Below, one piece after another: positions 13,701-36,946 of a stretch of 39,015 nt of DNA (positions within the stretch are counted from its first letter, which is position 1; each line of letters opens with the position of its first letter). The notes beneath the pieces are model-generated. The model was given only the letters and a program-made list of their open reading frames with translations. It was not told the origin of the DNA and made no database searches. This stretch comes from a virus: the IMG/VR virus record IMGVR_UViG_3300032893_003192, positions 1-39,015 of that record; one strand, given 5' to 3'. The position numbers and the translations under genes are program-made.

Positions 13701-15357
13701 ACTCGTCGGTGGAAAAGCCAACACCTATAAGTGCTTTATTAATAGAGCGTGGACACTATCAACATCTTTAGGAGTGCAGGGTTTTCTACACCCAGAAGGT
13801 ATCTATGACGACCCGAAAGGCGGTCAGTTTAGAGGGGCAATCTATGGGCGTCTTCGTTATCATTTTCAGTTCCAGAACGAACTCAGGCTGTTTTCAGAAG
13901 TACATCATGAGACGCTGTTCAGCGTCAACGTATACGGCGCGATTGGAAACGCTTCTTTCAAGCACCTTTCAAACTTGTTCGATCCAGTAACGGTAAGCGC
14001 GTGTTTTGACCATGATGGGAACGGCAAAGTCTTAGGGATCAAAGATGATGCGAACAAATGGAATACGCTCGGCCACAGTCATCGGATTGTGGATGTGGAT
14101 GAAGACACCCTGAGAACATTCGCTCGGCTCTATGACGAAGCGAACACGCCCGCCATGGAGGCCCGGTTACCCACAATCCACGCACGTGAACTCGTGGCGG
14201 TCTTGCGCAAGTTTGCGGCATTTCCGAAGCGGCTTGCCGACCTGGAGTACAAGGCAGCCGTCAGTGTGTTGGACGAAAACGCAAGAACGCAAGACGGCAC
14301 AATCCGGCCGTGTACGCAATTTGCAGCCCAGACTGAGGACCTAATCATCTCCGGGCCGCACTTCTCAGTGGCCAACTTTTTTGCGAAAACGCCACGATCA
14401 GTCTGCACCGTCAATTTGCATTATGATCCGCTGGACCTCACGAGCCTTCCGGAGGACTACCTTCCGCGGACGAATTTCGTTGTTGCGCAGCCCAAAGAGG
14501 TCTTCTTTGCTAAATGGCCAAAAGAGCAGTGGAGCCATTTGCCTGTGACTAACCACTTCAGGTTTATGTGCCGAAGACAGCTCAGCCAATCGGGGGAGCG
14601 GACACTCATATCCTCAATTGCACCGCGATTTGCGAGTCACTTGAATACAATTATCTCGCTCGCGTTCACCGATGCGGCGACGTTGGTCTCCTTCGCGGCA
14701 GGCTGCTCGTCTATTCCGTTCGACTTCTTCATCAAGAGCACAGGGCGCAGCGATGCCTACGAACCCGTTTTGCGCGGCCTTCCTGCCGTCTGTGCTAGTC
14801 CGGCTTTGGCAGCGCGTACGCTCCTGCTCAACTGTCTCACGAGGCATTACTCTGATTTGTGGAAAGAGTGCTTTGAGACCTCATTTAACACTCAGTCGTG
14901 GACAAAAGAAGATCCGCGTCTGTGCAATGACAGATTTGGAGCCCTACAGAGAGACTGGTCTTGGGCCACGCCATTGAGAACGGACTATGAACGCCGCCAA
15001 GCCCTCATCGAGATTGACGTCCTGATTGCTCGCACTCTTGGACTCGCACTAGAGGAGTTGGGGACCATTTACCGCATCCAGTTTCCTGTGCTACGAAAGT
15101 ACGAAGCCAATACTTTCTATGACAGACGTGGTCGCATCGTGTACTTGGACGGGGACAGCTCTTTCGGGTTTCGAACGCCGGACTGGAGGGGCATTGTAAA
15201 TTTGAAATCGGGGCTGGTCTCCCGAACCATTCAAGACGACACGCTTCCTGGTGGCTCGAAAGAACGAGCAATCGAATACGAGGCACCTTTTGATCGCTGC
15301 GACCGTGAGGCTGACTACGCTACCGCGTGGAAGTTCTTTGACGAGGCGGGTATATGA
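10786..15357 (+). CDS. Large adenine-specific DNA methyltransferase (type IIG / PglX / DrmMI-like)
   Basis: A 1523-aa N6-adenine methyltransferase. SAM-binding motif I is EPALGSGAF at 527-535 and catalytic motif IV is NPPW at 901-904. The gap of about 365 residues between them is long and mostly helical. An N-terminal region (1-380) resembles type IIG/PglX N-termini (GQPELWILEAL, then LLLLDRTKWPSKRFLRFDLEEIL), but I see no complete PD-(D/E)xK site. After motif IV comes a probable target recognition region (VVAQPKEVFFAKW, GERTLISSIAP). GC falls here: 55 of 120 at 13621-13740 against 73 of 120 at 12361-12480. It would mark host DNA as self, as DrmMI or PglX do. ATG at 10786 has a weak ribosome site and probably depends on readthrough from the helicase gene; it ends in an ATGA overlap with the next gene. 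Confidence 0.92.
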   Translation: MPIDLTGITNENEFYTHHYLAAILEGDLKPLFEAWAQQERAPWEALRALARPFQAIDRESDSTERQALRQKWFADLFGVLGYQLNADTVELEDGTLLSLAGHITRANGQPELWILEALNGGEEDDPLVAQEEILTKQVFAAAEPPRWVLLYGPQQLLLLDRTKWPSKRFLRFDLEEILGRRELSTLKATAALLHRDSVCPPDQISLLDRLDENSHKHAFAVSEDLKYSAREAVELLGNEAVWYLREVLKEGVYGKDLAEQLTRECLRYLYRLLFLFYVEAREELGYAPMKSEEYRTGYSLESLREAAEMDLSTEEDRSGFFLHHSLQALFRLIHDGWLHELKPEQIGDNTFRMEPLRCDLFDPARTPLLNRVRLRNHVLQKVIELLSLSREGKGRRRGRISYSQLGINQLGAVYEGLLSYTGFFVEEKDGLYEVKPEGEDYDPLKQAYFVPKSALGEYKDEEKVYANGRLVHHPQGSFVYRLAGRNRQKSASYYTPDVLTRCVVKYALKELLTDKSADDILNLNVCEPALGSGAFLNEAVNQLADAYLERKQRETGRVIGHDDYLLEKQKVKAFLADNRVFGVDRNPVAIELAEISLWLNTIYEGHTIPWFGGQLVAGNSLIGARREVFTRAQLESQNREWLDSVPERVPMGKDRANGQIWHFLVPDQGMSDYTDKAVKEMLPAEMKQIRDWRRDFTKRFSAGDVKALERLSTAVDRLWKKHCADLCQVRRDTAHVFPVFGQEANPAFSERGHRLTTHQRDEIFERAIIPSGGQASAYQRLKLAMDYWCSLWFWPVSGADLLPSLDEFLLELSAILEGTSHELSPLLGAEQQQLFPTGKPEQEQLRLAEELGVVNLIELSANLPRLNKVRELAEQHRFLHWELEFADLFEDRGGFDLILGNPPWIKIDWNEGGLMSDFEPLYALRAYSAAQLNDLRADAISKHSNLSAVYRAEYEDFAGSQSFLNSIQNYSLLVGGKANTYKCFINRAWTLSTSLGVQGFLHPEGIYDDPKGGQFRGAIYGRLRYHFQFQNELRLFSEVHHETLFSVNVYGAIGNASFKHLSNLFDPVTVSACFDHDGNGKVLGIKDDANKWNTLGHSHRIVDVDEDTLRTFARLYDEANTPAMEARLPTIHARELVAVLRKFAAFPKRLADLEYKAAVSVLDENARTQDGTIRPCTQFAAQTEDLIISGPHFSVANFFAKTPRSVCTVNLHYDPLDLTSLPEDYLPRTNFVVAQPKEVFFAKWPKEQWSHLPVTNHFRFMCRRQLSQSGERTLISSIAPRFASHLNTIISLAFTDAATLVSFAAGCSSIPFDFFIKSTGRSDAYEPVLRGLPAVCASPALAARTLLLNCLTRHYSDLWKECFETSFNTQSWTKEDPRLCNDRFGALQRDWSWATPLRTDYERRQALIEIDVLIARTLGLALEELGTIYRIQFPVLRKYEANTFYDRRGRIVYLDGDSSFGFRTPDWRGIVNLKSGLVSRTIQDDTLPGGSKERAIEYEAPFDRCDREADYATAWKFFDEAGI

Positions 15358-18300
15358 TTCCTTCCGTCATCGCCCGTCAGATTCAGCGCGGCGTGGAGGA
15401 CTTCCTCCTCACGACATTCCCGATCACGAATCCCTTCTTTGCCGGCACTCTCGAAAAGCTGATTGGCGCACCGGGCATGTTGTTCCGGGGACCGTACCTC
15501 TCCGTGAAGTTGCCGTTCGTGCCGGCGGATGAAGGGCCGCGTCCCTTCCCTGAGATTCTTCCCGAGAGCTTCGCGCCCTACCGCCACCAGCAACAAGCGT
15601 GGGAGCGGCTGGACACACGCGCCGGCCGGTCAACCATCGTCGCCACCGGCACCGGGTCCGGAAAGACGGAGTGTTTTCTCTATCCGGTCCTCGACCATTG
15701 CTTCCGGCAGCGTGGGCGAAGGGGGATCAAGGCCATCCTCATCTATCCGATGAACGCGCTGGCCACGGATCAGGCACAGCGGCTGGCGAAGATGATCTGG
15801 CGGAATCCAGAACTGCGGGGCTACGTCACGGCCGGACTCTGGATCGGGGGCTTGGAACGCAAGCCCTCCCCGGTGATGACGGAAGAGGACCTGATCACCG
15901 ACAAAGAGATGCTGCGCGCCGCCCCGCCGGACATCTTGATTACCAACTACAAGATGCTGGACTACCTGTTGGTCCGGCCTCGCGACGCCCGGCTCTGGCG
16001 GTTAAACGAACCGGAAACGCTCCGCTACCTGGTGGTGGATGAACTGCACACCTTTGATGGCGCGCAGGGCGCGGACCTAGCTTGCCTCCTCCGCCGCATC
16101 AAGGAGCGCGTGCATACTCCTCCCAATCATCTCTGCTGTGTCGGGACGTCGGCCACGCTCGGCGATGGCAGTCAGGCGGACCTGGCAAACTACGCGCGCC
16201 AGCTCTTCGCGGAGCCGTTTGACGCGGAAAGCGTCATCGGTGAATCGCTCTTGACGCCGGATGAGTTCCTGAAGGGCTGCCTGGTCACGCGGTTCCAAAC
16301 GCCAGGGAAAGGTGACTTGGGCACGATGGACCCGCTCGCCTACGAGTCGGCGGAGGAGTACCTCAAAGCCCAGGTGAAGCTGTGGATGGGGCAGGACTTA
16401 TCCCAGGATTCGGTGGCTCTGGGGGAAGCGCTCAAGCATCACGCGTTCTTCCGCAATCTGCTGGTGATTCTTGCCAACCGCGCCGTTGCCGCCGGCGATC
16501 TGGCGGCTGAATTGAAGAAGCAGCTCCCTGGATTCGCCGGATTGGAGGATGTGTATCTCGACCGTCTGCTGGGTAGCTTTCTGGCGCTGGTCTCTCGCGC
16601 CAGGGTTCCCGGCCTGCTCATCGATGGCACACAGAAACATGATCCGCTGGTCCGGATCCGGATGCAGCTCTGGTTGCGCGAGCTCAGACGCATGGTGGCC
16701 TCGGTCCGCCGCGACCCGGTGCTTGGCTTCGCAGACGACCTGAAGCCCGACGAGTTGAAGCGCAGCCTGCCGGTGATCCACTGCCGCGAATGCGGGAACA
16801 CGGGCTGGGGCGGCACGGTCCGGGATGCCGATACCCGCATCAATCCGGACCTGCAAACCTTTTACAACAGCTACTTCGCGAATTCGCCTCACGTCCACTT
16901 TCTCTATCCATACTCCGAAGATGACAGGAAGAAGCAGCGAGAGATTCCGCACTACGTTTGTACGGATTGCCTGAACATCCAGCGCATGACCGAGCCGGGC
17001 ACGTGCGCCAACTGCGGCGCCAATTTCGAGCGGATGCTGCCGGTCTGGATTCCCAACACGAACTACACGGTAAAGAAGAACGACGGAACCGAGAGGCGCC
17101 TGGGTTCTCATGATTGCCCAAGCTGCGGCGGCCACAACTCGCTGACCATCCTGGGCTCGCGCGCGGCCAGCCTGACCAGCGTCATCATCGCGCAATTGTT
17201 TTCCTCGCCGTTCAACGAAGACAAGAAGCTGCTGGCGTTTTCCGACTCCGTGCAGGACGCGTCGCACCGGTCCGGCTTCTTCGCTGCGCGCACGTATACG
17301 TTCAATTTACGGAGCGCGATTCAGAAGACCATTCTAGCCGCCGGCGGACCGGTTCCGTTCGAAACCCTCACGGCCCGATTTCTGGATGACTGGCGGCAGC
17401 GCCTCAAGTCTGAATCATTCCTGGCAACCTTCCTGCCGCCGGACTTGAACTGGCTGGAAGACTATGAGGCATTGCGAGCCACGGGGCGGTTGCCCGAAGG
17501 CTCCGATCTCATGAGCCTGCTCGATCGGCGGCTCGCATGGGAGATCTGGAGCGAGTACACATTCGACTGCCGCATCGGACGCACGCTGGAGAAAACCGGC
17601 AGTTCGACGCTGGAAGTGAAGCCCGATTTGCGGAAGCGAGCGATCGAGGCGCTGCTGCCGCGGTTGCGAGAGAAAATAGGTCCGCTTCGGGATCTGGACC
17701 AGATTGCGCTTGCGCGCTTCCTGGCCGGATTGGTGCAGAACCTGAAGAACCGCGGGGCCGTGGACGAGAGCGACCTCGCGCCGTATATCGAGAGCCTGGG
17801 TAATAGTTGGCTGCTCGGCAAGCAGGGCGGCCGCGCCCTATGGCGGCCAAACTTCTCGCGCGGCTCGCGGTCGCCTGTTTTTCTTACATCGCGTGGCGGT
17901 GAGCGATTTCAGACACTGATCCGCCAGCCGAACAATCCGACGCCTACCTGGTATGAGGATTGGCTGGAAAAATCGTTTTACGGCCTCGATCCGAATGTTG
18001 CCAATTCAATGCAGGTGATCTATGAGGCCGTGCTGAGTGCGCTTGTGGAAACGGGCCTCGTCTTTGAGCGGAACGCGAAGGGCGCGCGTGTTTGGGGACT
18101 CAAACCGGACGCCTTTCAGGTCACCATCGGCGTGATTCAGTTCCGGTGCAAGTACTGTAGCTACGCTGTTTCCGTGGGTCCTGACGATGCCGAGACGTTT
18201 GAAGGCAGCCATTGCATGCGGTACAACTGCGACGGGCACTTCGAGCGTGCGCCGGATAAGGAAGACTATTACCGCCGACTGTACGAATCAGGCGACGTGC

Positions 18301-21300
18301 AGCGAATCTTCTCGGAGGAGCACACGGGTCTGCTTGACCGCGAGACGCGGGAACGGGTCGAAGACGGATTCCGTCGCGAGGACAAAAAGCGCATGCCCGG
18401 CGATCCGAACTTGCTGTCCTGCACGCCGACGTTGGAGATGGGTATCAACATCGGCGATCTCTCGTCGATCGCGCTCTGTTCCGTGCCGCCGAAGGCGAGC
18501 AATTACCTGCAGAGAGTCGGACGAGCCGGGCGAGTAGACGGTAATTCCTTCGTGCTCACTGTGGCCAACGCGCGGCCACACGACTTGTTCTTCTACTTCG
18601 AGCCGGAAGAGATGATCCAAGGGCGCGTGGAAACGCCTGGTTGCTTCTTGAATGCGTCGGCAGTGCTAGAGCGGCAGTTGACAGCCTACGTGTTTGATCG
18701 CTGGGTAGAGACGGGCGTGCCAGAAGGAGCGCTCCCCGACGAATTGCGATCCGTGCTCGATGTGGTGGAGAACGGTGACCGGACCAAGGGGTTCCCAGCG
18801 AACCTACTTGCCTTCTTTGAGCAAAACCGCACCGAGATGGAGGATGGCTTTCTCGCGCTGTTCGAGAACGAGGTCGCCGATTACACCCGCGAAAGGATTC
18901 GGGCCTTCTCACGTGGGACAGACCTCGACATCACAGGGCTGGAACGTTCGATCTGGGAGGGGCTGGAGGAGTTGGCGGCGGAACGCAAGGCCCTGCGCGG
19001 CCGCATTCAGGCTCTCACCAAGAGAATCCGCGACGTGAAGCAGGACCCGGCACGCGATCAGAACTTCGAGGACACTCTTCAGCAACTGCTCCGCGAGAAA
19101 GCAGCAATGAATGAGATTGTCCGGTCCATGAACGAACGGCAGGTCCTGAATTTTTTCACCGACGAAGGGCTACTGCCTAACTACGCTTTCCCGGAAGCCG
19201 GTGTCATCCTGCGATCGGTTATCTACCGGCGGAATCCCAAGGCGGAAGATGAAGAACGGAAATACAAGACGCGGACGTATGAGTATGAGCGGCCGGCATC
19301 CTCCGCGATTCTGGAACTGGCGCCGGCGAACCACTTCTATGCAGAAGGCCGCAAGCTGGAAGTCGATCAGGTGAACCTCCAGGTTTCTCGAATCCAACCG
19401 TGGCGGTTCTGTAGCGATTGCTCATACCTGGAACTGGAAGGATTGTTGGAACCACGGGCCTCGTGCCCTCATTGCGGTAATCCGCTTTGGTCGGACGAGG
19501 GGCAACGGCGCAACATGCTGCGAATGCGGCAGGTCATATCGACCTCCTCGGAGCAGGAAAGCCGGTCCTACGACGAGAGCGACGACCGCGAGCCACAGTT
19601 CTATCAGAAGAACATGTTCGTGGTGAAAGAAGACGCCGACATCACCGAGGCATACTTCATCGACCGCGAAGAGGTGCCATTCGGATTCGAGTTTTTCCGG
19701 AAGATCAAATTACGGGAGGTGAACTTCGGCGAGAAGATGGCCGGTGGCCCGCAACTGACGATCGCCGGTCGATCAGTTGTAGACAGGCCCTTTGAGTTGT
19801 GCGGCGCGTGCGGGAAGGTCAAGAAGAACGGCAAAATCGAGCATGCCATCTACTGCCGCTATTGGGGCAAGGAAGAGAAAGAAAAGGTCATCGAGGCATG
19901 CTTCCTCTACCGGGAATTCACATCGGAGGCCATCCGCATGCTGCTCCCCGTGGCGAGTTTCGACGTGGAGCGCAACATCCACTCCTTTGTCGCGGCGCTC
20001 GATTTGGGTCTCAGGAAGAAGTTCCGAGGTGATCCCGGCCACCTCCTTACAACCGTGATGGATGAACCGGTGCCTGGTTCCGACGTGCGCAAGCGGTATC
20101 TCGTGCTCTATGACGGTGTGCCAGGAGGAACCGGCTACCTGAAGGAGTTGATGCGTGACCAACAGAGCCTCCTGGAAGTGTTCGAGCTAGCCCACGACGT
20201 CCTTAAGAATTGCATCTGCCAGAACGACCCGGAGAAGGACGGCTGCTATCGCTGCCTCCTCGCATACCGGGGGCGGCACGACCAGCAAAACACATCCCGG
20301 CAGGCAGCCCTCGAATTGTTGAAGCTGATCCTCGACAACCGGCAGCACTTGAAGCGAACCGACCGGCTGGATGCCATCCGTATCAACCGGTTGCTGGAAA
20401 GTGAGTTGGAGGGCCGTTTCATCGAGGCTCTGCGCCGAACCCCGGAAGGCGAGCCGCCGCGTAGTGTCACGCATCATGTGGTGAACGGCAAAGAAGGCTT
20501 CTACCTGCGGTCGGAATTTGGGAATTATCTGATTGAACCGCAGGTGGACGTTGGCTTGGCACAGGGGGTGGCTGTTCCAAGCCGCGTTGATTTTGTTTTC
20601 TATCCTGAGCGCCCAGAGAGGAGCGACCTGCCTATCGCCGTCTTCACGGATGGTTACGAGTACCATGCCGATCCGAACTCAGGCCTTCGCGTGGGCACGG
20701 ACACCGCCCAGCGAATGGCGCTCATGCGTTCGGGGAGATTTCGCGTCTGGTCGCTGACATGGGACGACGTACAAGAGCAGTTCAAAACCCCAGTGCCCCG
20801 ATTTGAGGCGGACCTTCTGTCTCCTGGAGCGAAGCTCGGTGCTCTACTCGCCAAACTCGACCCGGCAAATACAGGCAATTGGAAGAGCATTGGCGGCTTG
20901 TCGTCCTTTGGGATTCTCATGCTCCTGCTCGGGGCCGGGCGATCCAGATCCTGGCCGACCTATGCGCAGTCTTTTGTGGTGAGTCTGCTGGAGAATGATC
21001 GCGACACTCCTGGCCGTCTGCGGCTCCACTGGCAGCGGACCCACTCTGACGGGAGCCCATTGCTCCAAGCTGAGGGCGGAATGGATTCCGCGGCCTTGCA
21101 GGCGCGCGACTTCGCCAATCTCAACGTGCGCCTCTGTCTGTTCGACGATTATGCCCATCACGGACCGGTCGAGTGGAAAAGAGCCTGGCGTGAATTCCTC
21201 CGGCTGGGCAATCTATTACAGTTCCTCGATCATTTCGACTTCGTCAGTTCGCTCGGCCTGAACGGCGAAGTCTACGCGCCGATCTTCGAGCCCGCGCGCC

Positions 21301-21623
21301 GGCCGCACGAGGGTGTAGTCCCTGACCGGCTCGCCGCGCTTATGGAACTAGTGGCTCCAGAGATGCACGATCTTTGCCGCAGGGCTGCCGAGCGCGGCAA
21401 GGCTTTACCGGAGGCAGGGTTTGAGTTGACCAGCGAGGAAGGCGAGATTATTGCCGCTGCTGAACTCGCATGGCCCGTTTGCCGCCTTGCCGTTCTGCTG
21501 GAACATGAAGCTGATGGCGCGTGCTGCTTCGAGAGGGCAGGTTGGCGGGTGTTCTTTGCCGATGCCGTACTGAGTACACCGGAGGCGCTGCTGGATCTAT
21601 TGCCCGATGAGGTTGCCGAATGA
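15354..21623 (+). CDS. Giant DEAD/DEAH helicase with DUF1998 (MZB) domain and Vsr-like C-terminus
   Basis: A 2089-aa superfamily 2 helicase. RecA-like domain 1 holds Walker A GTGSGKT at 99-105, DELH at 229-232 and TSATLGDG. Zinc-ribbon pairs follow (CRECG; CTDC/CANCG; CPSCGG; CKYC), then domain 2 with LEMGINIGDLSS and QRVGRAGR at 1053-1060. The DUF1998/MrfA zinc-binding region carries CSDC/CPHCG, CGACG, YDGVPGGTGYLKEL near 1585 and the CIC..DGCYRCLLAYR cluster near 1620-1640. Near 1740-1790, RVDFVFYP, IAVFTDGYEYH and RMALMRSGRFRVWSLTWDDV resemble a Vsr/DUF559-type nuclease fold with an atypical acidic site. DISARM splits helicase (DrmA) and DUF1998 (DrmB); Druantia DruE joins them as here. 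GAGG precedes ATG 15354; both ends overlap neighbours by 4 bases. Confidence 0.92.
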   Translation: MIPSVIARQIQRGVEDFLLTTFPITNPFFAGTLEKLIGAPGMLFRGPYLSVKLPFVPADEGPRPFPEILPESFAPYRHQQQAWERLDTRAGRSTIVATGTGSGKTECFLYPVLDHCFRQRGRRGIKAILIYPMNALATDQAQRLAKMIWRNPELRGYVTAGLWIGGLERKPSPVMTEEDLITDKEMLRAAPPDILITNYKMLDYLLVRPRDARLWRLNEPETLRYLVVDELHTFDGAQGADLACLLRRIKERVHTPPNHLCCVGTSATLGDGSQADLANYARQLFAEPFDAESVIGESLLTPDEFLKGCLVTRFQTPGKGDLGTMDPLAYESAEEYLKAQVKLWMGQDLSQDSVALGEALKHHAFFRNLLVILANRAVAAGDLAAELKKQLPGFAGLEDVYLDRLLGSFLALVSRARVPGLLIDGTQKHDPLVRIRMQLWLRELRRMVASVRRDPVLGFADDLKPDELKRSLPVIHCRECGNTGWGGTVRDADTRINPDLQTFYNSYFANSPHVHFLYPYSEDDRKKQREIPHYVCTDCLNIQRMTEPGTCANCGANFERMLPVWIPNTNYTVKKNDGTERRLGSHDCPSCGGHNSLTILGSRAASLTSVIIAQLFSSPFNEDKKLLAFSDSVQDASHRSGFFAARTYTFNLRSAIQKTILAAGGPVPFETLTARFLDDWRQRLKSESFLATFLPPDLNWLEDYEALRATGRLPEGSDLMSLLDRRLAWEIWSEYTFDCRIGRTLEKTGSSTLEVKPDLRKRAIEALLPRLREKIGPLRDLDQIALARFLAGLVQNLKNRGAVDESDLAPYIESLGNSWLLGKQGGRALWRPNFSRGSRSPVFLTSRGGERFQTLIRQPNNPTPTWYEDWLEKSFYGLDPNVANSMQVIYEAVLSALVETGLVFERNAKGARVWGLKPDAFQVTIGVIQFRCKYCSYAVSVGPDDAETFEGSHCMRYNCDGHFERAPDKEDYYRRLYESGDVQRIFSEEHTGLLDRETRERVEDGFRREDKKRMPGDPNLLSCTPTLEMGINIGDLSSIALCSVPPKASNYLQRVGRAGRVDGNSFVLTVANARPHDLFFYFEPEEMIQGRVETPGCFLNASAVLERQLTAYVFDRWVETGVPEGALPDELRSVLDVVENGDRTKGFPANLLAFFEQNRTEMEDGFLALFENEVADYTRERIRAFSRGTDLDITGLERSIWEGLEELAAERKALRGRIQALTKRIRDVKQDPARDQNFEDTLQQLLREKAAMNEIVRSMNERQVLNFFTDEGLLPNYAFPEAGVILRSVIYRRNPKAEDEERKYKTRTYEYERPASSAILELAPANHFYAEGRKLEVDQVNLQVSRIQPWRFCSDCSYLELEGLLEPRASCPHCGNPLWSDEGQRRNMLRMRQVISTSSEQESRSYDESDDREPQFYQKNMFVVKEDADITEAYFIDREEVPFGFEFFRKIKLREVNFGEKMAGGPQLTIAGRSVVDRPFELCGACGKVKKNGKIEHAIYCRYWGKEEKEKVIEACFLYREFTSEAIRMLLPVASFDVERNIHSFVAALDLGLRKKFRGDPGHLLTTVMDEPVPGSDVRKRYLVLYDGVPGGTGYLKELMRDQQSLLEVFELAHDVLKNCICQNDPEKDGCYRCLLAYRGRHDQQNTSRQAALELLKLILDNRQHLKRTDRLDAIRINRLLESELEGRFIEALRRTPEGEPPRSVTHHVVNGKEGFYLRSEFGNYLIEPQVDVGLAQGVAVPSRVDFVFYPERPERSDLPIAVFTDGYEYHADPNSGLRVGTDTAQRMALMRSGRFRVWSLTWDDVQEQFKTPVPRFEADLLSPGAKLGALLAKLDPANTGNWKSIGGLSSFGILMLLLGAGRSRSWPTYAQSFVVSLLENDRDTPGRLRLHWQRTHSDGSPLLQAEGGMDSAALQARDFANLNVRLCLFDDYAHHGPVEWKRAWREFLRLGNLLQFLDHFDFVSSLGLNGEVYAPIFEPARRPHEGVVPDRLAALMELVAPEMHDLCRRAAERGKALPEAGFELTSEEGEIIAAAELAWPVCRLAVLLEHEADGACCFERAGWRVFFADAVLSTPEALLDLLPDEVAE

Positions 21624-23740
21624 CGATTGCCCTTTCCAGTGATTTTCTGCTGGCCTTCTCGAACGTCCAGAAGAGCCACCAGAAGCAAGTGCGGGAGTTC
21701 ATCGAACGTTTCCGCGAGCGGCCCGATGCGCCGGGGTTGAACTACGAGGTGATCCAGAGCGCCAAGGGCAAGGATCTCTATTCTGTGCGCATCAACCAAG
21801 CGTATCGAGCCGTGGTCTTCCATCCTTCGAATTCGCAGGTCTACGTTCTGTCATGGGTGGATCACCACGACGAAGCCTACCGTTGGGCAGAACGGAAGCA
21901 ATTTGTCGTGCATCCAGCCACTGGCGCATTACAGATGCTCAGTGCGGAACCTCAGGAGGCGCCTCCGGCCGCGCCTGCTCCCGCCGCTGCCAAGACGGGG
22001 CTATTCTCTGAGATCAAGGACAAGCAACTATTGCGCTTGGGGGTGCCGGAAGAACTGATCGGCGCTGTGCGAGGCATTAACTCAGACGCCGAGTTGGAGG
22101 CTGCGGAGAGACGGCTTCCGCAGGAGGCCTACGAAGCACTATTCATGCTCGCCTCCGGCTTCAGCTTGGACGACGTCTTCCGCGAGATGGAGAAACCGGA
22201 AGAGGAAGTTCCGGTCGATCAGAAGGACTTCGTTGCCGCTCTGCAAAACGAAGACTCCAAGCGGCGGTTCTACGTGGTCGACGAGGCCAAGGATTTGGCC
22301 GAGGTGCTGAACGCTCCGCTCGAGCAATGGCGCGTTTTCCTCCATCCGAAGCAGCGAAAACTTGTTTCGATGCAGGTCAACGGCCCTGTTCGCGTACTCG
22401 GTGGCGCCGGTACGGGGAAGACAGTTGTCGCGATGCACCGCGCCCGTTACCTGGCGGAGGAGGTCTTCAACAAGAAAGAGGACCGCATACTGTTCACGAC
22501 GTTCACGCGGAACCTGGCCACGGATATCCAGGAGAATCTACGCAAGCTCTGCTCGGTTGACGCGCTCTCACGCATCGATGTCGTGAACCTGGATGCCTGG
22601 GTGGCGAATTTCCTGCGCGGGCAGGGATACCGGCATCAGGTCGTTTTCGATGAAGACGAAAACGAGGCATGGGCCTACGCCCTCAACCAAGCTCCGTCTG
22701 ACCTCGGGCTCGCTCCGAACTTTTATCGCTCCGAGTGGGAACAGGTCGTTCAGGCTCAGAACATCACAGACGCTGATCAGTACCTCAAGGCGTCCCGCAT
22801 TGGCCGTGGAACAAAACTGGGCCGCGACGCCAAGAAACGGATCTGGCCTGTCTTTCAGGAGTACCGGGCCCAACTCAACGAACAGGGAAAGAAGGAGTAC
22901 ATCGATCTTCTGCGCGACGCCCGCGGCCTGATCCAGAGCAAGGGAATCTCCCTGCCCTATCGGGCGGTGATCGTCGATGAGGCGCAGGATATGAGCGCCG
23001 AGGCGTTCCGCTTGATGCGGGCGATTGTGCCGGAAGGGACCAACGACTTGTTCATCGTCGGCGATGCGCACCAGCGGATTTACCGCCATCGCGTCTCGCT
23101 AGGCCAGTGCGGGATCAACATCAAGGGCCGCGGCAAGAAGCTCAAGATCAACTACCGCACCACCGATGAGACTCGCCGGTTTGCAGTTGCGCTCCTGGAG
23201 GGTCGCGAGATCGACGACCTGGATGGTGGAACGGACCAACAGAAGGGCTACGTCTCCTTGACCCATGGTCGGCCTCCGTTGGTCCGGAGCTTCGGCACCT
23301 TTGCCGAGGAAGTCGCTTTCCTGAAACAGCACATTGGGGAGATTCAGAAGGACGGTGCGCCACTGGAATCCGTATGCGTGGTGGCCCGAACCAAGCGCCT
23401 CGTGGAGGGCTACATCTCCCAGTTGCAGGCCGCCGGGTTTGGTACGTACGAGATTAAGCGCAATGCAGCCGAGCAGCGGGACAAGCCCGGTATCCGTGTC
23501 GCCACCATGCACCGGGTCAAGGGGCTTGAGTTCGAGCACGTCATCGTAGTCGCGGCGAACGAGGGCATCCTCCCCCTAAAGGCCGCGGTCGTTGACGCGG
23601 AAGACACGGTGGCGCGGCGCGACGCCGAAACCGGGGAGCGATCCTTGCTCTACGTGGCGCTGACTCGCGCCCGGCGATCTGCAACCATCACTGGCTATGG
23701 CCAGGCAAGTCCTTTTCTGACAAAAGCTGGCCCAGTTTGA
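21620..23740 (+). CDS. RelE/ParE-like domain fused to UvrD-family helicase
   Basis: A 706-aa, two-part protein. Residues 1-100 read as a RelE/ParE-type toxin fold: a helical pair (FSNVQKSHQKQVREFIERF), then VRINQAYRAVVF, VYVLSWVDHHDEAYRWA. A Pro/Ala linker lies at about 112-128, and a helical spacer at 130-240. The superfamily 1 helicase core follows: GGAGTGKT at 261-268, VDEAQD at 452-457, GDAHQRIY, INYRTT, VATMHRVKGLEFE, and LLYVALTRAR near the end. UvrD-type enzymes unwind 3'-5'. No antitoxin gene is present, so the toxin-like domain may be tamed by fusion or used as a sensor. GAGG lies 7 bases before ATG 21620, in an ATGA overlap with the large helicase gene. It is the last gene of the operon and ends convergent with the phage gene at 23786, with no clear terminator between. 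Confidence 0.9.
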   Translation: MTIALSSDFLLAFSNVQKSHQKQVREFIERFRERPDAPGLNYEVIQSAKGKDLYSVRINQAYRAVVFHPSNSQVYVLSWVDHHDEAYRWAERKQFVVHPATGALQMLSAEPQEAPPAAPAPAAAKTGLFSEIKDKQLLRLGVPEELIGAVRGINSDAELEAAERRLPQEAYEALFMLASGFSLDDVFREMEKPEEEVPVDQKDFVAALQNEDSKRRFYVVDEAKDLAEVLNAPLEQWRVFLHPKQRKLVSMQVNGPVRVLGGAGTGKTVVAMHRARYLAEEVFNKKEDRILFTTFTRNLATDIQENLRKLCSVDALSRIDVVNLDAWVANFLRGQGYRHQVVFDEDENEAWAYALNQAPSDLGLAPNFYRSEWEQVVQAQNITDADQYLKASRIGRGTKLGRDAKKRIWPVFQEYRAQLNEQGKKEYIDLLRDARGLIQSKGISLPYRAVIVDEAQDMSAEAFRLMRAIVPEGTNDLFIVGDAHQRIYRHRVSLGQCGINIKGRGKKLKINYRTTDETRRFAVALLEGREIDDLDGGTDQQKGYVSLTHGRPPLVRSFGTFAEEVAFLKQHIGEIQKDGAPLESVCVVARTKRLVEGYISQLQAAGFGTYEIKRNAAEQRDKPGIRVATMHRVKGLEFEHVIVVAANEGILPLKAAVVDAEDTVARRDAETGERSLLYVALTRARRSATITGYGQASPFLTKAGPV

Positions 23741-29976: not shown

Positions 29977-30129
29977 GCGTAGATGATTGGCCTGGAGAGG
30001 CTCTTACGGGCACTGCGGCTACGAACGCCTGAGGCTGCCCGTCGGTGACAGGGTTGCTGTGGAGACCATTCTGCGGGAGAATCGCTCTCTGATATGCTTT
30101 ATTGCTGATAGTGGAAAGACCGGGATTGC

Positions 30130-30702
30130 ATGGACTCTTCGGAACCGCAAGCGATCGATCTCAGGCTGAGTCCCGAGGCAGAGCGCTACTTGGTCGAAGT
30201 AGAGCAACGTAGACTCGCCGTTCTTTCAGCCGTCTCCCGCCTCCCAATCGGCGTTCTGATTTGGGGACCCGCTCCTACCGGCGATTCACGCGTAGCCCAG
30301 GCTAGGAGGCTGTTACGAGACGAAATGATCCGGCGTGGTCACCTCGCTCAATTCAGTGAGGATCTGCTTCTAAAGGACTCCACGTATTCGGTCCAACTGC
30401 AGCAGCTTTCGCATGTGGAGGCAGCAGACATCGTATTCTCGCTTCCGGACTCTCCCGGTTCAATCGCCGAAGTGCACGACTTCGCCAAACTCCCGAAACT
30501 TTCACATAAGATCGTGACCTTCCTGGATAGGCAGTGGAACGATGGATATGCAAATCGAAGCCTGATTGAATTGCAGTCGCGTGTTACTTGTGCGATTGAG
30601 CCATACGACGCCGAGCAATTGCCCTCCTGCATAATCTCGAAAGCCGCTGAAATGGTGGGCAGGCTGCAGGAACTCTACTGGCTGCTTGGGAGGCGCCTAT
30701 GA
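30130..30702 (+). CDS. NDT/SLOG-like Rossmannoid enzyme, cassette A
   Basis: A 190-aa plus-strand protein inside the minus-strand tail module. The pattern fits nucleoside 2-deoxyribosyltransferase-like or SLOG/TIR-like folds: strand VLIWGPAPTG at 42-51 with a Gly-rich turn, a helix, then ADIVFSLPDSPGSIAE at 99-114. E114 after the PGSIAE turn sits where NDT-type enzymes keep a catalytic or ligand-binding Glu, followed by the strand HKIVTFLD. Such domains act on nucleotides or NAD in several defence systems, including retron effectors. The gene overlaps its wHTH partner by 4 bases (ATGA), so the pair is co-translated. No ribosome site is obvious. The specific substrate cannot be read from the sequence. 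Confidence 0.82.
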   Translation: MDSSEPQAIDLRLSPEAERYLVEVEQRRLAVLSAVSRLPIGVLIWGPAPTGDSRVAQARRLLRDEMIRRGHLAQFSEDLLLKDSTYSVQLQQLSHVEAADIVFSLPDSPGSIAEVHDFAKLPKLSHKIVTFLDRQWNDGYANRSLIELQSRVTCAIEPYDAEQLPSCIISKAAEMVGRLQELYWLLGRRL

Positions 30703-31841
30703 GCAGCACGGTGTACCTCCTCGACGACTATCGCTTCCCGATACTGTCAAACAAGAACGCCCTCACGCTATTGGCGTTGCTTTTGCGTGAAGGCGCGAAA
30801 ACACAAGAGGAGTTGGCCGCAAATTCAAAGATTCCGTCCGCTGCCCTTCGATCGCTGGCTCGGGATCTGTTTCATGCTGGTTTAGTCCGATTAGTGGAGG
30901 GAGACACACTATCGCTTACGGACAAGGGCGCGGCAATCCTTGATCGTCTGGGTCTCCTCGGTCTGATGGTCGATTCCGTCGTCACATCTTATTCCCTCCC
31001 CGACGAACCAGGTGTCGGCTTGAAGCGATTGTTGAGTTCCGGCCGATCGGCCATGCAGAAGTCCCTTCGTCTTAGGGTCGTGGACCGACTAGCGAAGGCT
31101 TGGGCTCGCGACCCTAACGAAGCGTCCCGGTTCTTGCTTGCCTCGGTTCTAGCCATGCACGATCAGGACGCACCAATTCGCAGTCCAGAACATAGTTCGA
31201 TACCCTTATTGCATTTCTCTGGGCATGGACATGCTTGGGAGAACCTCTGGCTGCGCGCATCTTCCGATTTGGATGATGCCAAAGCGTTCTGTTCACACTG
31301 GCGCCTTCCCGCCGCAGAAGACAAGAAGCGCGTCGTCCAGTTCATTTTGTTCGAAACGTGTGCAAGCGCTCTTGCCCAGGTTGATCGCCCGTCAATGTGG
31401 TTACACAAGGCCTGTGTCGAGGATGGATCGTTGCCATCGCGGCTGACGGAACACATGATTGCTTGGGTGCCGAATGCCGACGCGCTACTGACGCAGCTAG
31501 CTCACAGATACCAGCCCGAATATCTGCAATTCCAGTTGGCTTTCCAGAAAGAAGCGGTCTGGGACGCGCTCTGTGAGGTCCTTCGGGCCCAATTAGGGGA
31601 TGATGATTCAACTCCGGTGACCATGCGGAATCTGATCGGCGATTTGCTCGAGGGACCTCTTGACGGACCGGAACGAGTCGAGTTGGCATTGTTACGCATT
31701 TCCGAACTACGGCATGAGATCGAGACAGGTTCTCTGAGGAGCCTTTCTGTTCAGGACTGCCAGCGTCTTGAAGAAGAGGTAGCAAAGTTGGCTGAGTCCT
31801 TGTCTTCAAAGCGATCAACTCCGAGCCACGACGACGAGTGA
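30699..31841 (+). CDS. Winged-helix partner protein, cassette A (380 aa)
   Basis: A 380-aa protein with a winged helix-turn-helix at about 15-85: NALTLLALLLREGAKTQEELAANSKIPSAALRSLARDLFHAGLV, then the wing (LVEGDTLSLTDKG). The rest is helical and not recognised; one segment (WENLWLRASSDLDDAKAFCSHWRLP) and a terminal coiled helix (EEEVAKLAESLSSKR) are visible. In retron-type defence a DNA-binding wHTH accompanies an NDT effector; here the same pair occurs without a reverse transcriptase. It may regulate the effector, sense DNA, or bind it as an antitoxin-like partner. The gene ends 10 bases before the convergent tail-tip gene, so any terminator would lie inside coding sequence. Confidence 0.83.
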   Translation: MSSTVYLLDDYRFPILSNKNALTLLALLLREGAKTQEELAANSKIPSAALRSLARDLFHAGLVRLVEGDTLSLTDKGAAILDRLGLLGLMVDSVVTSYSLPDEPGVGLKRLLSSGRSAMQKSLRLRVVDRLAKAWARDPNEASRFLLASVLAMHDQDAPIRSPEHSSIPLLHFSGHGHAWENLWLRASSDLDDAKAFCSHWRLPAAEDKKRVVQFILFETCASALAQVDRPSMWLHKACVEDGSLPSRLTEHMIAWVPNADALLTQLAHRYQPEYLQFQLAFQKEAVWDALCEVLRAQLGDDDSTPVTMRNLIGDLLEGPLDGPERVELALLRISELRHEIETGSLRSLSVQDCQRLEEEVAKLAESLSSKRSTPSHDDE

Positions 31842-31851
31842 ATTATCGGCC

Positions 31852-34800
31852 TCATGTCTGGATCACGACTGTAAGATCCGCTCCAGGATCGGGGGAAGCC
31901 ACGGCCTTGATATCGAACGCCAAGTCATATCCTTCGTTAAGAATAGGCGTTGGCCAGATGCACGGCCGAATCGCGCACGCCGGGTGGTCCCTCGTGATGA
32001 CGGCATCGAACGTCTGGTTTGCTGGATCGACCGCCAGTACCTGGACGCACTCTTCGGTCGCGCCACCCAAGTCGAAGAACACGAACCGGCCCACCTCAAG
32101 GCCGGTCGTGGATGCATCATAGGAGGCTGTGGAAATCGTCTGGACCGAACCGCTACCCGTGATTGCGTTGATGCTGACCAGCCCATAGTCCGCATACGGA
32201 AGCCGTCGCGTCTCCGGCTTGCCGTAGCCCTGGCCGACCAGGAAGTCGTATGTGTTCTTCGCGCCGTCCGGAAGCATCTGCGCTATCCCCATTTTTTCGA
32301 GTATGTTCCAGGTCGAGCCTCCATCAGCCGAGTACTTCACCACGTAAGCCGACTGCCCATCCGTGGTCGGTTGTTGGACATAAGCGAAGACGCACCGCAT
32401 GGACGCGGCATCATGGACCTTCATCGGGATGGCCACGTTGTCCTGAGCCGACAGCGGGCCGGGGATCTGAAACGTGTAGGCGCCGCCTGAGCAGGTCCGG
32501 TCGCCCGGCATGAACGGTTCGTTGTGGTGGGACAGCCCCCAGACCGTGAACGGTCCGTAGCCGAAGTGATTGGCTACACCAACCAACACCGACACGATGC
32601 ACGCCGAAGGGAGCTTCGCCTCGATCCGGGCCGGCAGTCCCGGCGTCCGGAAGAAACCTTTCTTCACGGCCATCGTGAACATCTTCATGTCGAGCTTGTA
32701 GAACCGAACGCCCTCCAAGTGTGCGCAGCGCAGCGTGCCGAAGGTGGCTTGGCCGGCCGGAACTCCCGGATACGCCCGTTGGAACTGAAAGGATCCGGTC
32801 GGCACCACGTCGCCAGTCTCGCCCCGTCCCACGATTTGCGCGCATTCATATGATCGGCGGCCCGGATTGTCCGCGTCGGCAGCTTCGTCGTTGAACACCA
32901 CGAAGTCACCTACCTTGAACGTCCGCGCCACATCCGGATTTACCGTGCAGTTGACCGTCGCCGGATCGGTGGGCGAATCCAGTGCGGCGTCGAGGCTGCC
33001 CCACAGATCGGTGGCGAGCTCGTCCACGTAGTACAAGCCCATGGCGATCTCGGTGGCGCCGGCGATATTGTCGTTCCCCGATGCATCGGGATCGACCGAA
33101 ATATCGTCGACAGCAAACGAGCCGTAATCCGTAAGCTTGGGCGTTCCGTGAACAATCCCCGGCACTCCCGTGTCATGGAACAACTCATCGGGAACCGGCG
33201 AGGCCTCTACGTCGGCGGGCTTCGGGCCGTCCACGAGATCGTACATCGAGTCCGTGGTCGTGCGGCCCTGGATGTCGATCGAGTAATCCTTGTTGAGCTT
33301 CCAGCCGGTTACGCGAAACTCTCCCGAGCCGTTCGGCATGTCGTCGTGCGTCATCGAGCAAACCATGCCGGGCTCGCTGTTGAGTGCGAGCACCGTGGTC
33401 CGGAACGACAACTGACGTGCAGCTTTCCATTCCGCAGCGTTGATCCCGCCCAATTCTTCCCGAAGCCGGGTGCTGATGATGCGCGCCGCCTGAGATTTGG
33501 TGAAGGTGCCGGAGAGGTTGACGTTCGATTTCAGGAACAGCGGGCCCGCGCCGCTACCGATCTGCGTCGCGTAGTCAATGTCGTAGACGGTGACCGAGTT
33601 GTTGACGAACTTGTAGTCTTGGTCGGCGAAGTTTGCCGTCAGATGGTTGAAGGATGGCTTGATCGGAGCCAACTGGAGCGACTGGAATAGGATGTTCCCG
33701 ATGGTGAAGGCTTCCACCGTCGAGGAGTTCTCGCGGATACCGATCTTGAGTTTGCCGAAAGCAAACGTGTAGTAGCCCAGGCAGTTCATCAGGACTTCCT
33801 GGAGCCAGTCGCGGAGCGGCTTCTCCTCCTGCAGCACGCCACGGAATTTGAACTGCGTCTCGCTGCCCGACCCGACCAGTTTCGTTACGCTGTCGTTGCA
33901 GATCGCCGCCGCGTCCAGCACCGCTTGCACGTCGAAGAACGTCTCGGCGAGGTCCAGTTGCGCCGTGGTCGCGTTGCCGCCCAGCCGGAGGCCGCGCGCA
34001 CGAAGCAGCATGTTGACCGCGATCCACACCGGGTTGGTGAGCGCCGGCCCATAGGCGCGCGCGCCGAGCGAGGTCCACACCCAGCCGCTCATCCCCTGCT
34101 GGACGTAGGCGATCATCGCGTGGTCGCCGGGTTTCGTGAGTTGCAGGCCCTTGGCGTCGCTGCGCCGGATCACGATGAACGCGGTTCCGGCCGCGAAGTT
34201 GTCCTTAAATGTAGAGGCACCCGAGTACACCTTCCGCCAATCGCCGCCCGTGGTGTTGCCGGATTGATCGAGCGAAAAGAAGTCGGTCGCGCCGGCAGGA
34301 TCGGTCCCCAGGCACTGGCGAATCCCATATGTCGGCTGGTTGGGCCAGCCATGCTGGGCCTGGCCGTCCAGCGTGCTGCCGACGAACACGGCTCCGGCGG
34401 CGTTTGCGCCGACAGGGTTTCCGTCCAGATCCTCGTAGTGCGCGTCGGTGTACGCGATGAGCGGGCCTTCGCCCACGATCCCCAGCGCTTCGTAGAAATC
34501 GCTTTCGTCCCGGCCGGCGGCGACCTTGCAGTTCACCGGCATCTCGCCGTCTGTGTAGATCTCCGGAACCACCTGATCGTAGATGGAGTCCGCAACCAAG
34601 GAAACGCTGGTGATGGTTGACCGCCCGAAGCCGAACACTCCGGTCGAGTTGTCCTTGATCGTTACACCCTGCGGCTCCGCAATGATGCCGCCGTACGACC
34701 GCTTCATGCCGTGTGCCAGGCAGCCGTTCGGTGTGTCGTAGCCCTTGTCGCACTTGGTCGGATCGCCATCCGGGAAGTGGACCAGGTCCATCGCGCCCGA

Positions 34801-35724
34801 CGTCGAAAACGGGCAGGCCTGGGTGTTGAACGGCTTCCAGCAGGTTCGCGAAATCTTCCGGCAGGGGTAGGGCAGGTTCAGTTCGTACAGGCCGTCGGCG
34901 GCCGTGACCTTGAACTCCGGCCCGGAGTCGAACTGCCAGTTGACGATGTCGCCCCTCCACAGATCGAGCTTGATCAGCGTGCCGACATGAAAGAGAGAGA
35001 ACTCGATCGACGCGCGGAACAGGTCCACATCGTTGGCAAGGTCGCGCATGACGCGATCAGCGTTTCCGAAGGTGAATGTGGCCTGGTCGGCCTCGTTCCC
35101 CATGCTCTGGGAGATGCCATCGAAGTCCACGAGCCGGGGCAGATATAGCTGTGTGCCCACCGTGCAGCGCCGGTCAGAGACATGAATTGCGGGGTAGCCG
35201 GCCTGAAGCGGCTGGAGCTTGATGAGCGGAATCATCTGCTGCACCTGCGGCAGCAGTGCGTCCTTGAGCCCTTGCGGCGGGAATCTGGTAGCGGTGGTGA
35301 TCGGGCTGTAGGTGGGACTGGTCGTGGGGATCTCGATCAGCGTGACGCCGACGCTGCACACCCAATCGGCCACCATCTGCCAGGACAGAGGCTCGTTGCC
35401 GAACCGGCAGGTGTACGCCGTGGTCCCGTTGCCATCGTCGTTAGGCGCGTTGTAGGTGAACGCGCCGAAAGGCCCGTACTTCGACTCCCAGAAGTTCCGA
35501 AGCGCGATCCTCTGCGCGTCGTTCACCCACGCGCGGCGCACGGTGAACCGCTTGGCCCCGTTGCCGAGCAAGAAGCGCTGCTCGATTTTTGCATTGCCGG
35601 AGCCAAACTGGTGGATGGCCACGTCCGAATGGTTCGAACGTCCGTATGGATAGTCTGGGACTATCGGAAAGGTTCCGGACGGCGCGATGTCCGGAACGGT
35701 GATGTTGCCGATCGTGTCAGGCAT
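31852..35724 (-). CDS. Tail-tip hub protein: fused gpM-, gpL- and gpJ-like regions
   Basis: A 1290-aa protein. The first 130 residues resemble lambda gpM/DUF2460-type minor tail proteins (WVNDAQRIALRNFWESKYGPFGAFTY). Residues about 170-350 resemble gpL: C295, C304, C325 and C335 are spaced like the Fe-S ligands of that family, ending in YGGI. From about 600 to 870 it resembles the gpJ/Tip-J hub (LRDWLQEVLMNCLGYYTF; FRTTVLALNSEPGMVCSMTHDDM). The remaining C-terminal part is beta-rich, with module-like repeats near 950-1010 and 1215-1275. It would form the tail tip that contacts the cell and opens the channel. ATG at 35724 has a weak ribosome site. Cassettes A and B flank it on either side. No separate gpK or gpI gene is seen. 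Confidence 0.85.
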   Translation of the reverse strand: MPDTIGNITVPDIAPSGTFPIVPDYPYGRSNHSDVAIHQFGSGNAKIEQRFLLGNGAKRFTVRRAWVNDAQRIALRNFWESKYGPFGAFTYNAPNDDGNGTTAYTCRFGNEPLSWQMVADWVCSVGVTLIEIPTTSPTYSPITTATRFPPQGLKDALLPQVQQMIPLIKLQPLQAGYPAIHVSDRRCTVGTQLYLPRLVDFDGISQSMGNEADQATFTFGNADRVMRDLANDVDLFRASIEFSLFHVGTLIKLDLWRGDIVNWQFDSGPEFKVTAADGLYELNLPYPCRKISRTCWKPFNTQACPFSTSGAMDLVHFPDGDPTKCDKGYDTPNGCLAHGMKRSYGGIIAEPQGVTIKDNSTGVFGFGRSTITSVSLVADSIYDQVVPEIYTDGEMPVNCKVAAGRDESDFYEALGIVGEGPLIAYTDAHYEDLDGNPVGANAAGAVFVGSTLDGQAQHGWPNQPTYGIRQCLGTDPAGATDFFSLDQSGNTTGGDWRKVYSGASTFKDNFAAGTAFIVIRRSDAKGLQLTKPGDHAMIAYVQQGMSGWVWTSLGARAYGPALTNPVWIAVNMLLRARGLRLGGNATTAQLDLAETFFDVQAVLDAAAICNDSVTKLVGSGSETQFKFRGVLQEEKPLRDWLQEVLMNCLGYYTFAFGKLKIGIRENSSTVEAFTIGNILFQSLQLAPIKPSFNHLTANFADQDYKFVNNSVTVYDIDYATQIGSGAGPLFLKSNVNLSGTFTKSQAARIISTRLREELGGINAAEWKAARQLSFRTTVLALNSEPGMVCSMTHDDMPNGSGEFRVTGWKLNKDYSIDIQGRTTTDSMYDLVDGPKPADVEASPVPDELFHDTGVPGIVHGTPKLTDYGSFAVDDISVDPDASGNDNIAGATEIAMGLYYVDELATDLWGSLDAALDSPTDPATVNCTVNPDVARTFKVGDFVVFNDEAADADNPGRRSYECAQIVGRGETGDVVPTGSFQFQRAYPGVPAGQATFGTLRCAHLEGVRFYKLDMKMFTMAVKKGFFRTPGLPARIEAKLPSACIVSVLVGVANHFGYGPFTVWGLSHHNEPFMPGDRTCSGGAYTFQIPGPLSAQDNVAIPMKVHDAASMRCVFAYVQQPTTDGQSAYVVKYSADGGSTWNILEKMGIAQMLPDGAKNTYDFLVGQGYGKPETRRLPYADYGLVSINAITGSGSVQTISTASYDASTTGLEVGRFVFFDLGGATEECVQVLAVDPANQTFDAVITRDHPACAIRPCIWPTPILNEGYDLAFDIKAVASPDPGADLTVVIQT

Positions 35725-35782
35725 TGCTCGACATTGGGACTAAAGAATTGCTCTTGGATTTTGAGTTAAAATCGTTGCCGCT

Positions 35783-36502
35783 ATGGACCAGGGCTCAGTC
35801 ACTCCTACACGCGTCCTGAAGACGATACGTGACGGATCCGGCGTTGACCACGATTCCATCGATCACGCGCTCGCCGGTTGCGACGGTGATCGTTATTTGA
35901 TCCGCAAGGCAATCGGCGACCTACAGGAAGCCGGTCTGATCAAGTTCGAAGGCAGCCGTTTCATCGTCACCGAGCACTGGATGAAGCTGCAAGGACTTCT
36001 GGGAATCAGCCTAAAGACATTGATTGATGCGCAGCACGCTTTATCCGGCCTCTCAGTTCATCCGATCTTCGGGTTGCCAAGTAAGGCAACGGCACCAGAC
36101 GTCTTTGTCTTGATGTCGTTTGAGCCCAGCTTGCGGCCGGTTTACGACGATCACATAAAAAAGGTCGCCGGTCAACTAAACCTCTCCGTCGGAAGGGCTG
36201 ATGATTTCTTCACTGCGCATGCCGTGATCGACGATATATGGTCAGCCGTGTACAATTCAAGACTGGTCATAGCAGACTGCACAGGCCGAAACGCGAACGT
36301 CTTCTATGAGATTGGGATGGCCCACACTGTTGGCAAGCCCGTCGTCTTGACAACTCAGAACGAGGCGGATGTGCCCTTTGACCTTCGATCCATTCGGTAC
36401 ATACATTACAACTACACTCCGCCAGGGATGCAGAAGTTCGAAGAACGTCTGGCGAAGACGATCTCGGGGATACTTGGTGCCGTAGGCGCACGCCCCTCGT
36501 GA
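35783..36502 (+). CDS. Winged helix fused to a TIR/NDT-like domain, cassette B
   Basis: A 239-aa protein. Residues 5-70 form a winged helix (DRYLIRKAIGDLQEAGLIKFEGSRFIVTEHW). Residues 104-232 form a TIR-like or NDT-like Rossmannoid: DVFVLMSFEP, YDDHIKKVAGQ, the helix-strand unit SRLVIADCTGRNANVFYEIG with E176 in the usual Glu place, then GKPVVLTTQ and the VPFDLRSIRYIHY segment. Such domains bind or cleave nucleotides, often NAD, in defence. It lies on the plus strand within the minus-strand tail module, 58 bases divergent from the tail-tip gene. TAAAAT lies about 10 bases before ATG 35783, so a leaderless promoter is possible; no ribosome site is seen. The precise enzymatic activity is not established. 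Confidence 0.83.
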   Translation: MDQGSVTPTRVLKTIRDGSGVDHDSIDHALAGCDGDRYLIRKAIGDLQEAGLIKFEGSRFIVTEHWMKLQGLLGISLKTLIDAQHALSGLSVHPIFGLPSKATAPDVFVLMSFEPSLRPVYDDHIKKVAGQLNLSVGRADDFFTAHAVIDDIWSAVYNSRLVIADCTGRNANVFYEIGMAHTVGKPVVLTTQNEADVPFDLRSIRYIHYNYTPPGMQKFEERLAKTISGILGAVGARPS

Positions 36503-36544
36503 CGCCTTCTTCTGAATCCATATACAGCCGACAGCAAGAGGAAC

Positions 36545-36946
36545 TCATGCGAGTTCCAGTAATTCGATCTCAGCGTCGGACCTTCCCGGTCCGGACGACT
36601 GCTGCCAGTCCGAGTTGAAGCGGACTGTATAGCGGCCGGTGGTCACCTGGCCGGTCGGATCATAAGAGAACTTCGGGTTGGTGTCATACGGATCGTAGAA
36701 GTAGAACGGCTCCGTGGTGCCATTCCGTGCGTCATAGAAGGTGCGGAGCGCCTGAAGCGCCGCCGGAGTCAGCCGCTTGGTCAGCCGCCACCGCTTCCGG
36801 CTGTTGGTCGCCAGCACCGACCGCTGCGATTCCCCGTTCTTGTACTCGTTCTCGATCAGCGGGTAAGCGCGCTCGTGCGTGAACGCTCGGCACAGCGACT
36901 GCGGCAGCACGGTGGCGGGTGCCGCGTTCTGCACGGAGCCGGGCAT
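36545..36946 (-). CDS. Minor tail protein, gpM/DUF2460-like
   Basis: A 133-aa protein. The segment WRLTKRLTPAALQALRTFYDARNG followed by the aromatic run EPFYFYDPYD and a beta-rich end (GRYTVRFNSDW) matches the pattern of lambda gpM-like and DUF2460-like minor tail proteins, which cap the tape measure at the tail tip. Its ATG overlaps the tape measure stop in a TAATG, so translation is coupled. This places it after the tape measure gene, as gpM is in lambda. Cassette B separates it from the tail-tip gene. Confidence 0.85.
   Translation of the reverse strand: MPGSVQNAAPATVLPQSLCRAFTHERAYPLIENEYKNGESQRSVLATNSRKRWRLTKRLTPAALQALRTFYDARNGTTEPFYFYDPYDTNPKFSYDPTGQVTTGRYTVRFNSDWQQSSGPGRSDAEIELLELA

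Follow-up and report, generated by a model that had tools for sequence, protein, structure and literature searches.

A phage tail-module gene pairs a probable winged helix with a TIR/N-glycosidase-like domain and is a candidate one-gene abortive-infection effector

What is a small gene doing between two tail genes of a phage, on the strand opposite to both? The locus lies in a virus contig, IMG/VR record IMGVR_UViG_3300032893_003192, of which we analysed positions 1 to 39,015 (the window). An earlier note had marked a "cassette B" here and read it as a winged helix (wHTH) and a TIR/NDT-like domain joined in one candidate abortive-infection protein. Its open reading frame was located exactly: 35783..36502 on the plus strand, with an ATG start, encoding a protein of 239 aa (P0001), in a frame conserved with the closest homologue.

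Cassette B is a genuine, intact gene under purifying selection and not a chance frame, a conclusion that follows from a 74% homologue, a third-position bias and dN/dS. That homologue, L002 from an Acidobacteriaceae MAG, is 74% identical across residues 1-231. The two genes differ at 50, 29 and 135 first, second and third codon positions, mostly third positions therefore, and NG86 dN/dS is 0.187/3.10, with dS so near saturation that the values can be read only as strong purifying selection. Identity extends over both parts of the protein, at 48 of 66 N-terminal residues and 100 of 131 residues of the C-terminal domain. The two genes also share an upstream block (35764..35782, + strand, in cassette B) with a -10-like TAAAAT and no visible RBS. 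The TAAAAT/TACAAT element ends 9-10 bases 5' of the ATG in both, a comparison of two sequences only, and a consensus promoter scan upstream of the cassette B frame found none. From this sequence it is possible to infer that cassette B has its own promoter and a leaderless transcript.

The C-terminal domain is modelled as a member of the TIR/nucleotide N-glycosidase Rossmannoid fold class. In an AlphaFold2 model built on seven aligned sequences, residues 103-233 (36089..36481, +) have block pLDDT values of 82-96, except for 62 at residues 141-150. Among the matches listed, Z runs from 12.2 to 13.6, and TIR domains and nucleotide N-glycosidases are tied: 4w8g (Z 13.6, residues 104-229, 120 aligned, 2.6 A), the TIR domains of SARM1 and SPARTA (13.2 each), MilB (13.1), DNPH1 (13.0) and SfSTING (12.9). 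P0001 also matches the PADLOC model "Effector, TIR" at E 1.3e-10. The TIR/NDT-like Rossmannoid of the first reading holds in outline. In Pfam, no family reaches E 0.001 for P0001 (PF05014, at E 0.028, falls below the cut-off), a curated TIR model included, and as a single query against PDB sequences it gave one insignificant match only.

A profile of 50 domain sequences related the domain to solved enzymes: DNPH1/Rcl at E 4e-4 to 0.083, NDT at 0.006, MilB at 0.037 and CAP12 TIR-STING at 0.23. The alignment places E176 on the Glu of the DNPH1/Rcl YELG motif. E176, which had been picked out from the letters alone, is the Glu within ADCTGRNANVFYEIG; it belongs to the NANVFYEIG motif at residues 170-178 (36290..36316, +), with its codon at 36308-36310. 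The conserved residues are compatible with a working N-glycosidase. Judged by nearest sequence, its substrate would first of all be (d)NMP, with DNPH1/Rcl, NDT and MilB ahead of the CAP12 TIR; by analogy only, NAD(P)+ is placed ahead of (d)NMP as the more likely substrate.

The N-terminal part, residues ~1-66 (35783..35980, +), is likely but not firmly modelled as a winged helix. AlphaFold2 predicts helices at 8-17, 23-29 and 34-49, strands at 53-56 and 59-62, and a helix at 64-73, which is the winged-helix order. Confidence is low, with block pLDDT of 46-63 in the whole-protein model and 47-79, mean 66, when the part is folded alone. Foldseek returned no match below E 0.001 for the N-terminal model. 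In a VIA comparison of the N-terminal 90 residues, the nearest solved structures are mostly winged helices with Z of at most 7.0; the top two rows are retron-Ec86-with-effector entries (Z 7.0 and 6.8), on a par with generic winged helices, and others are MarR- and BlaI-type repressors. Of the wHTH previously drawn at residues 5-70, then, the order of elements is recovered, but with low confidence.

Judged by sequence, the family that carries the cassette B domain is modular. As a single query, P0001 found no relative in viral_contigs; an alignment-based search there reached 153 relatives, from which a set of 80 members, P0001 included, was kept. The PADLOC "Effector TIR" model (PDLC00733) is matched by 78 of the 80, and Pfam finds NDT in 26, CAP12-TIR in 3, DUF4062 in 2 and AbiJ_NTD5 in 1. 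The TIR/NDT-like domain sits at the C-terminus in 42 members and at the N-terminus in 35, and 3 are extended on both sides. The two DUF4062 members, L003:1969-2907 and L004:5521-6447, carry an N-terminal DUF4062 (E 5.3e-18 and 1.5e-9, respectively) ahead of a C-terminal cassette B domain, giving two TIR/NDT-like domains per protein. The PHROG families matched (3634, 10872, 26406 and 16139) are all listed as of unknown function.

Active-site-like positions are conserved in this family. Of the 80 rows, 76 retain R138, 73 retain D140, 73 D165 and all 80 D200. These counts exclude NxNVFYE, which belonged to the motif used to search for that set; complete conservation of N[PA]NVFYE was dropped as evidence since most of the loci had been found by the motif. 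A second set of 44 domain copies, recovered by similarity, retains E176 in 41 of them, D200 in 42, N170 in 39, N172 in 37 and D165 in 35. The HMM behind this second set used the motif-found set as its training data, and motif-found genes recur among a few of its copies (from L239-L241 and L297).

Cassette B occupies a cargo site between two tail genes. The site (35725..36544) has a GC content of 0.53, against 0.63-0.64 on either side. Its neighbours, each defined by its ORF and relatives, are a 1290-aa gene (31852..35724, -), which we take to encode a tail protein, and a 133-aa gene (36545..36946, -), presumably a DUF2460-like tail gene; cassette B is antisense to both. Searches with the two flanking proteins, of which we took the best 80 of 143 and the best 80 of 130 confirmed matches, gave 151 loci. 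Both flanks lie in order in 145 of them, and 97 junctions remain after removal of identical ones. The tail genes are adjacent in 25 (with an 8-base overlap in 22, and spacings of 0, 6 and 38 bases in 3 more), and other DNA, 312-5161 bases long, separates them in 72.

Fillings of low GC content stand apart by strand. Where GC lies at least 6 points under that of the tail genes, the longest ORF is antisense in 8 of 8 fillings, against 8 of the 64 others; near-duplicates (L205/L206 and L156/L211) reduce the eight to about six kinds. In the remaining 56 of those 64 the longest ORF is on the tail strand, and these may be ordinary structural genes. The low-GC fillings include a PLD-type, DrmC-like gene in L130 and a cupin in L206, while those of L156, L177, L121 and L122 have no Pfam match. 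The L130 protein (8413-9624, -; 403 aa) is itself low-GC antisense cargo at the tail site. Defence models run against 10 cargo proteins gave only one match at E 0.1, and the called ORFs of other cargo at the site hold no P0001 homologue. A survey of tail modules, as suggested at the outset, showed that the cargo site varies in content and found cassette B at it only once.

At this site cassette B has the features of a moron: variable content between conserved phage genes, a strand of its own and atypical GC. That setting is not general, since only 13 of 65 readable viral relatives are antisense to both neighbours, and an antisense rule for the whole family was dropped on this count. The 75 viral relatives divide into 13 antisense to both neighbours, 23 of mixed orientation, 29 co-directional and 10 at a contig edge. 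Of three phage records that we opened, SA13 and a Latilactobacillus phage carry the relative antisense to the genes on both sides, and phiEf11 carries it co-directionally.

Outside this phage group the homologues are patchy. In the phylum of the L002 MAG, 37 of 297 genomes gave matches, as did 50 phage and 79 plasmid records; most matches are to the C-terminal domain, and none in the phage or plasmid records covers 80% of P0001. A tyrosine integrase adjoins the closest homologue (L002/L297), about 650 bases away, so that this homologue may be mobile too. We mapped the surroundings of bacterial homologues as ORFs in 20 genome regions, with Pfam run on ten genes from two of them. The other genes near L002 are ordinary-looking chromosomal genes, and a defence scan of four gave one weak match (7e-7). 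The homologues examined, patchy and modular with an integrase beside the closest copy, do not look like host metabolic enzymes, the finding that the earlier note had named as fatal to its reading. The smaller flanking tail protein is matched in 2 of the 297 genomes, once clearly (61%, E 1e-47) and once weakly with stops; the genome with the clear match has both flanks, separated by about 3.2 kb, which ties the phage group, thinly, to that phylum.

The phage itself is probably temperate, given two tyrosine integrases at one end of the record. These neighbouring recombinases (window 1-936 and 1047-2252, both -) match different SAM-like Pfam models in their N-terminal parts. Elsewhere, at window 7885-23740 (+), four large neighbouring genes have restriction- or defence-like matches: SNF2/DrmD-like (E 2.6e-92), type IIG RM/DrmMI-like (5e-260), DruE-like (6.5e-104) and UvrD/GajB-like (1.2e-34). 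By its matches this block looks like a composite restriction/defence system.

A second pair of genes, cassette A (30130-30702 and 30699-31841, +), recalls cassette B in domain types. Its first protein has weak retron II-A NDT matches (PADLOC E 5e-4, NCBIfam STM3845 E 1e-3) and its second has weak winged-helix matches at residues ~18-85. The gap that holds it (window 29977-31851, 1875 bases) is also variable, at -3 to 2 bases in 19 of 84 rows and up to 3792 elsewhere; these rows may include duplicates, and three at about -300 resemble alignment artefacts. The parallel in domain logic that the first reading drew between the cassettes survives only as an analogy: neither BLASTP nor profile comparison related their NDT-like parts significantly, and the N-terminal parts matched with a probability of only 9%, at a place outside the cassette A winged helix.

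We think it slightly more likely than not that cassette B is a prophage-borne, single-gene abortive-infection effector with a wHTH sensor and an NAD(P)/nucleotide N-glycosidase. It would be a lysogenic-conversion ("moron") gene with a single product of abortive-infection type. The N-terminal winged helix would serve as its sensor or oligomerisation part and would recognise an infection cue, either a virion protein (as in Swarozyc, below) or DNA. The C-terminal TIR/NDT-like N-glycosidase, with E176 as putative nucleophile, would once activated cleave NAD(P)+, the more likely target, or a (deoxy)nucleotide; the cell would stop, and the lysogen population would be protected against superinfecting phages. 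The analysis itself shows the frame and its conservation, the fold class of the modelled C-terminal domain, the conserved Glu, the variable content of the cargo site and the integrases of the phage; from these we infer a sensor role for the wHTH, catalytic activity and its substrate, toxicity, defence and expression in the lysogen.

The effector reading is favoured because of the TIR/NDT fold, the conserved catalytic-type Glu, the DUF4062 and AbiJ_NTD5 partners and the antisense low-GC cargo setting, and because the same phage carries integrases and defence-like genes and one other filling of the site is PLD-type and DrmC-like. Counting against it, the sequence is nearer to dNMP/CMP N-glycosidases than to NADases, the wHTH reaches only a mean pLDDT of 66 and Z of at most 7.0, other cargo at the site holds no copy of the gene and only 1 of 10 scanned cargo proteins is defence-like. 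The one-gene effector proposed from the letters alone thereby becomes the best-supported reading on fold, Glu, partners and setting, with a putative function and NAD as one candidate substrate.

A ligand-controlled transcription regulator is an unlikely alternative. The winged helix would sit on DNA and the TIR/NDT-like domain would sense a nucleotide (NAD+, ADP-ribose or dNMP), leaving the pool intact. A small lone gene whose N-terminal winged helix has MarR- and BlaI-type rows would suit such a role. So would L003 and L004: DUF4062, described as a TIR-like NADase in a preprint (PMC13174449), precedes the cassette B domain there, so that the latter might play the accessory role in those proteins. 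A regulator fits poorly with the retention, in diverged members, of the nucleophile-type Glu and of further residues like those of an active site, and with a domain found at either protein end, which is thus not tied to one N-terminal reader.

Slightly less credible than the regulator is an enzyme of nucleotide metabolism or counter-defence, a hydrolase like DNPH1 or MilB that would act on (d)NMP or on a second messenger of defence and so benefit the phage in lytic growth. DNPH1/Rcl, NDT and MilB are indeed the nearest solved sequences, and the Pfam NDT matches noted above agree. The modelled winged helix and the AbiJ_NTD5 and DUF4062 domains of relatives argue against it, as does orientation: being antisense to the surrounding tail genes, cassette B lies outside their operon. 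An orphan or decayed toxin that has lost its partner (a retron effector without RT), inert or kept for another reason, agrees with a record that lacks a reverse transcriptase and gives no Rfam match at gathering score, yet it is very improbable given purifying selection on both domains and the presence in P0001 of the family-conserved residues.

As a candidate prophage-borne abortive-infection effector, cassette B can be set against several known systems. P2/P4 defence hotspots are fixed sites in temperate phages and satellites that hold variable accessory genes, TIR genes among them (PMC9122126), and prophage morons such as Tab offer a comparison case for fixed-site accessory genes (PMC10884400). 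The cassette B spot is similarly fixed and filled with variable accessory genes. It differs in lying between two tail genes, in that few of its fillings look defence-like by sequence, and in a phage group drawn from IMG/VR contigs and one bacterial genome only.

CBASS and Pycsar TIR effectors (CAP12) are resembled through PDLC00733, presumably a CBASS-derived effector model, the 3 CAP12-TIR Pfam matches and the SfSTING fold match. P0001 has no STING or other cyclic-nucleotide domain in Pfam, and the window proteins scanned, a subset of the ORFs, include no cyclase gene. To DNPH1/Rcl and MilB the domain is linked by the best profile sequence matches, the aligned YELG Glu and Z of about 13; these are small single-domain enzymes, whereas the cassette B domain shares its chain with a modelled winged helix, and its family carries N-x-N-V-F-Y-E.

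The effector of Retron-Eco1 (Ec86; PDB 7xjg, 7v9x) likewise unites an NDT-like domain with a winged helix, and Retron-Eco1 is said, in work attributed to Carabias in 2024, to hydrolyse NAD+. The likeness lies in an NDT/TIR-like domain and a winged helix within one protein and in the top VIA rows of the P0001 N-terminus. The difference from Retron-Eco1 and type II-A retrons is that the cassette B record, which may be a fragment, has no RVT_1 reverse transcriptase match and no Rfam match at gathering score, though many retron RNAs may be absent from Rfam. A limited search of open papers found no mention of the exact cassette B architecture, which does not prove its absence from print.

The closest design is that of Swarozyc (KpSwz). 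According to its preprint, a DUF4062 TIR-like domain hydrolyses NAD+ through a Glu and is antiphage, an HTH/winged AUX domain binds the phage portal and so activates it, and a wHTH with a TIR-like NADase is an experimentally tested antiphage design (PMC13174449). Cassette B shares a single protein with a TIR-like domain, a (modelled) winged-helix accessory domain and modular partners; DUF4062 and the cassette B domain are even fused within the L003 and L004 proteins. It differs in that P0001 has no DUF4062 match (nor has any other protein of the record), its winged helix is N-terminal and its gene sits in a tail module. P0001 fits the working principle of Swarozyc and Retron-Eco1 and is a member of neither, which is why we take it as a probable prophage-borne abortive-infection effector.

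More tentatively, and with doubts that outweigh our confidence, P0001 might be an immune receptor made of one phage-encoded protein and built like Swarozyc, but with the domains the other way round: the N-terminal winged helix would read a structural protein of the incoming phage and switch on the C-terminal TIR/NDT N-glycosidase, from a family in which we found no experimentally studied member, and the tail-module site would be an exchangeable defence slot of an Acidobacteria-linked phage group. If this were true, a function would be suggested for the four PHROG families, and the tail-module site would be a place to collect accessory genes. A winged helix with a TIR/NDT N-glycosidase would then be a recurring, order-swappable immune architecture common to Swarozyc, the Retron-Eco1 effector and the cassette B family, and its minimal form would fit into one 0.7 kb phage gene.
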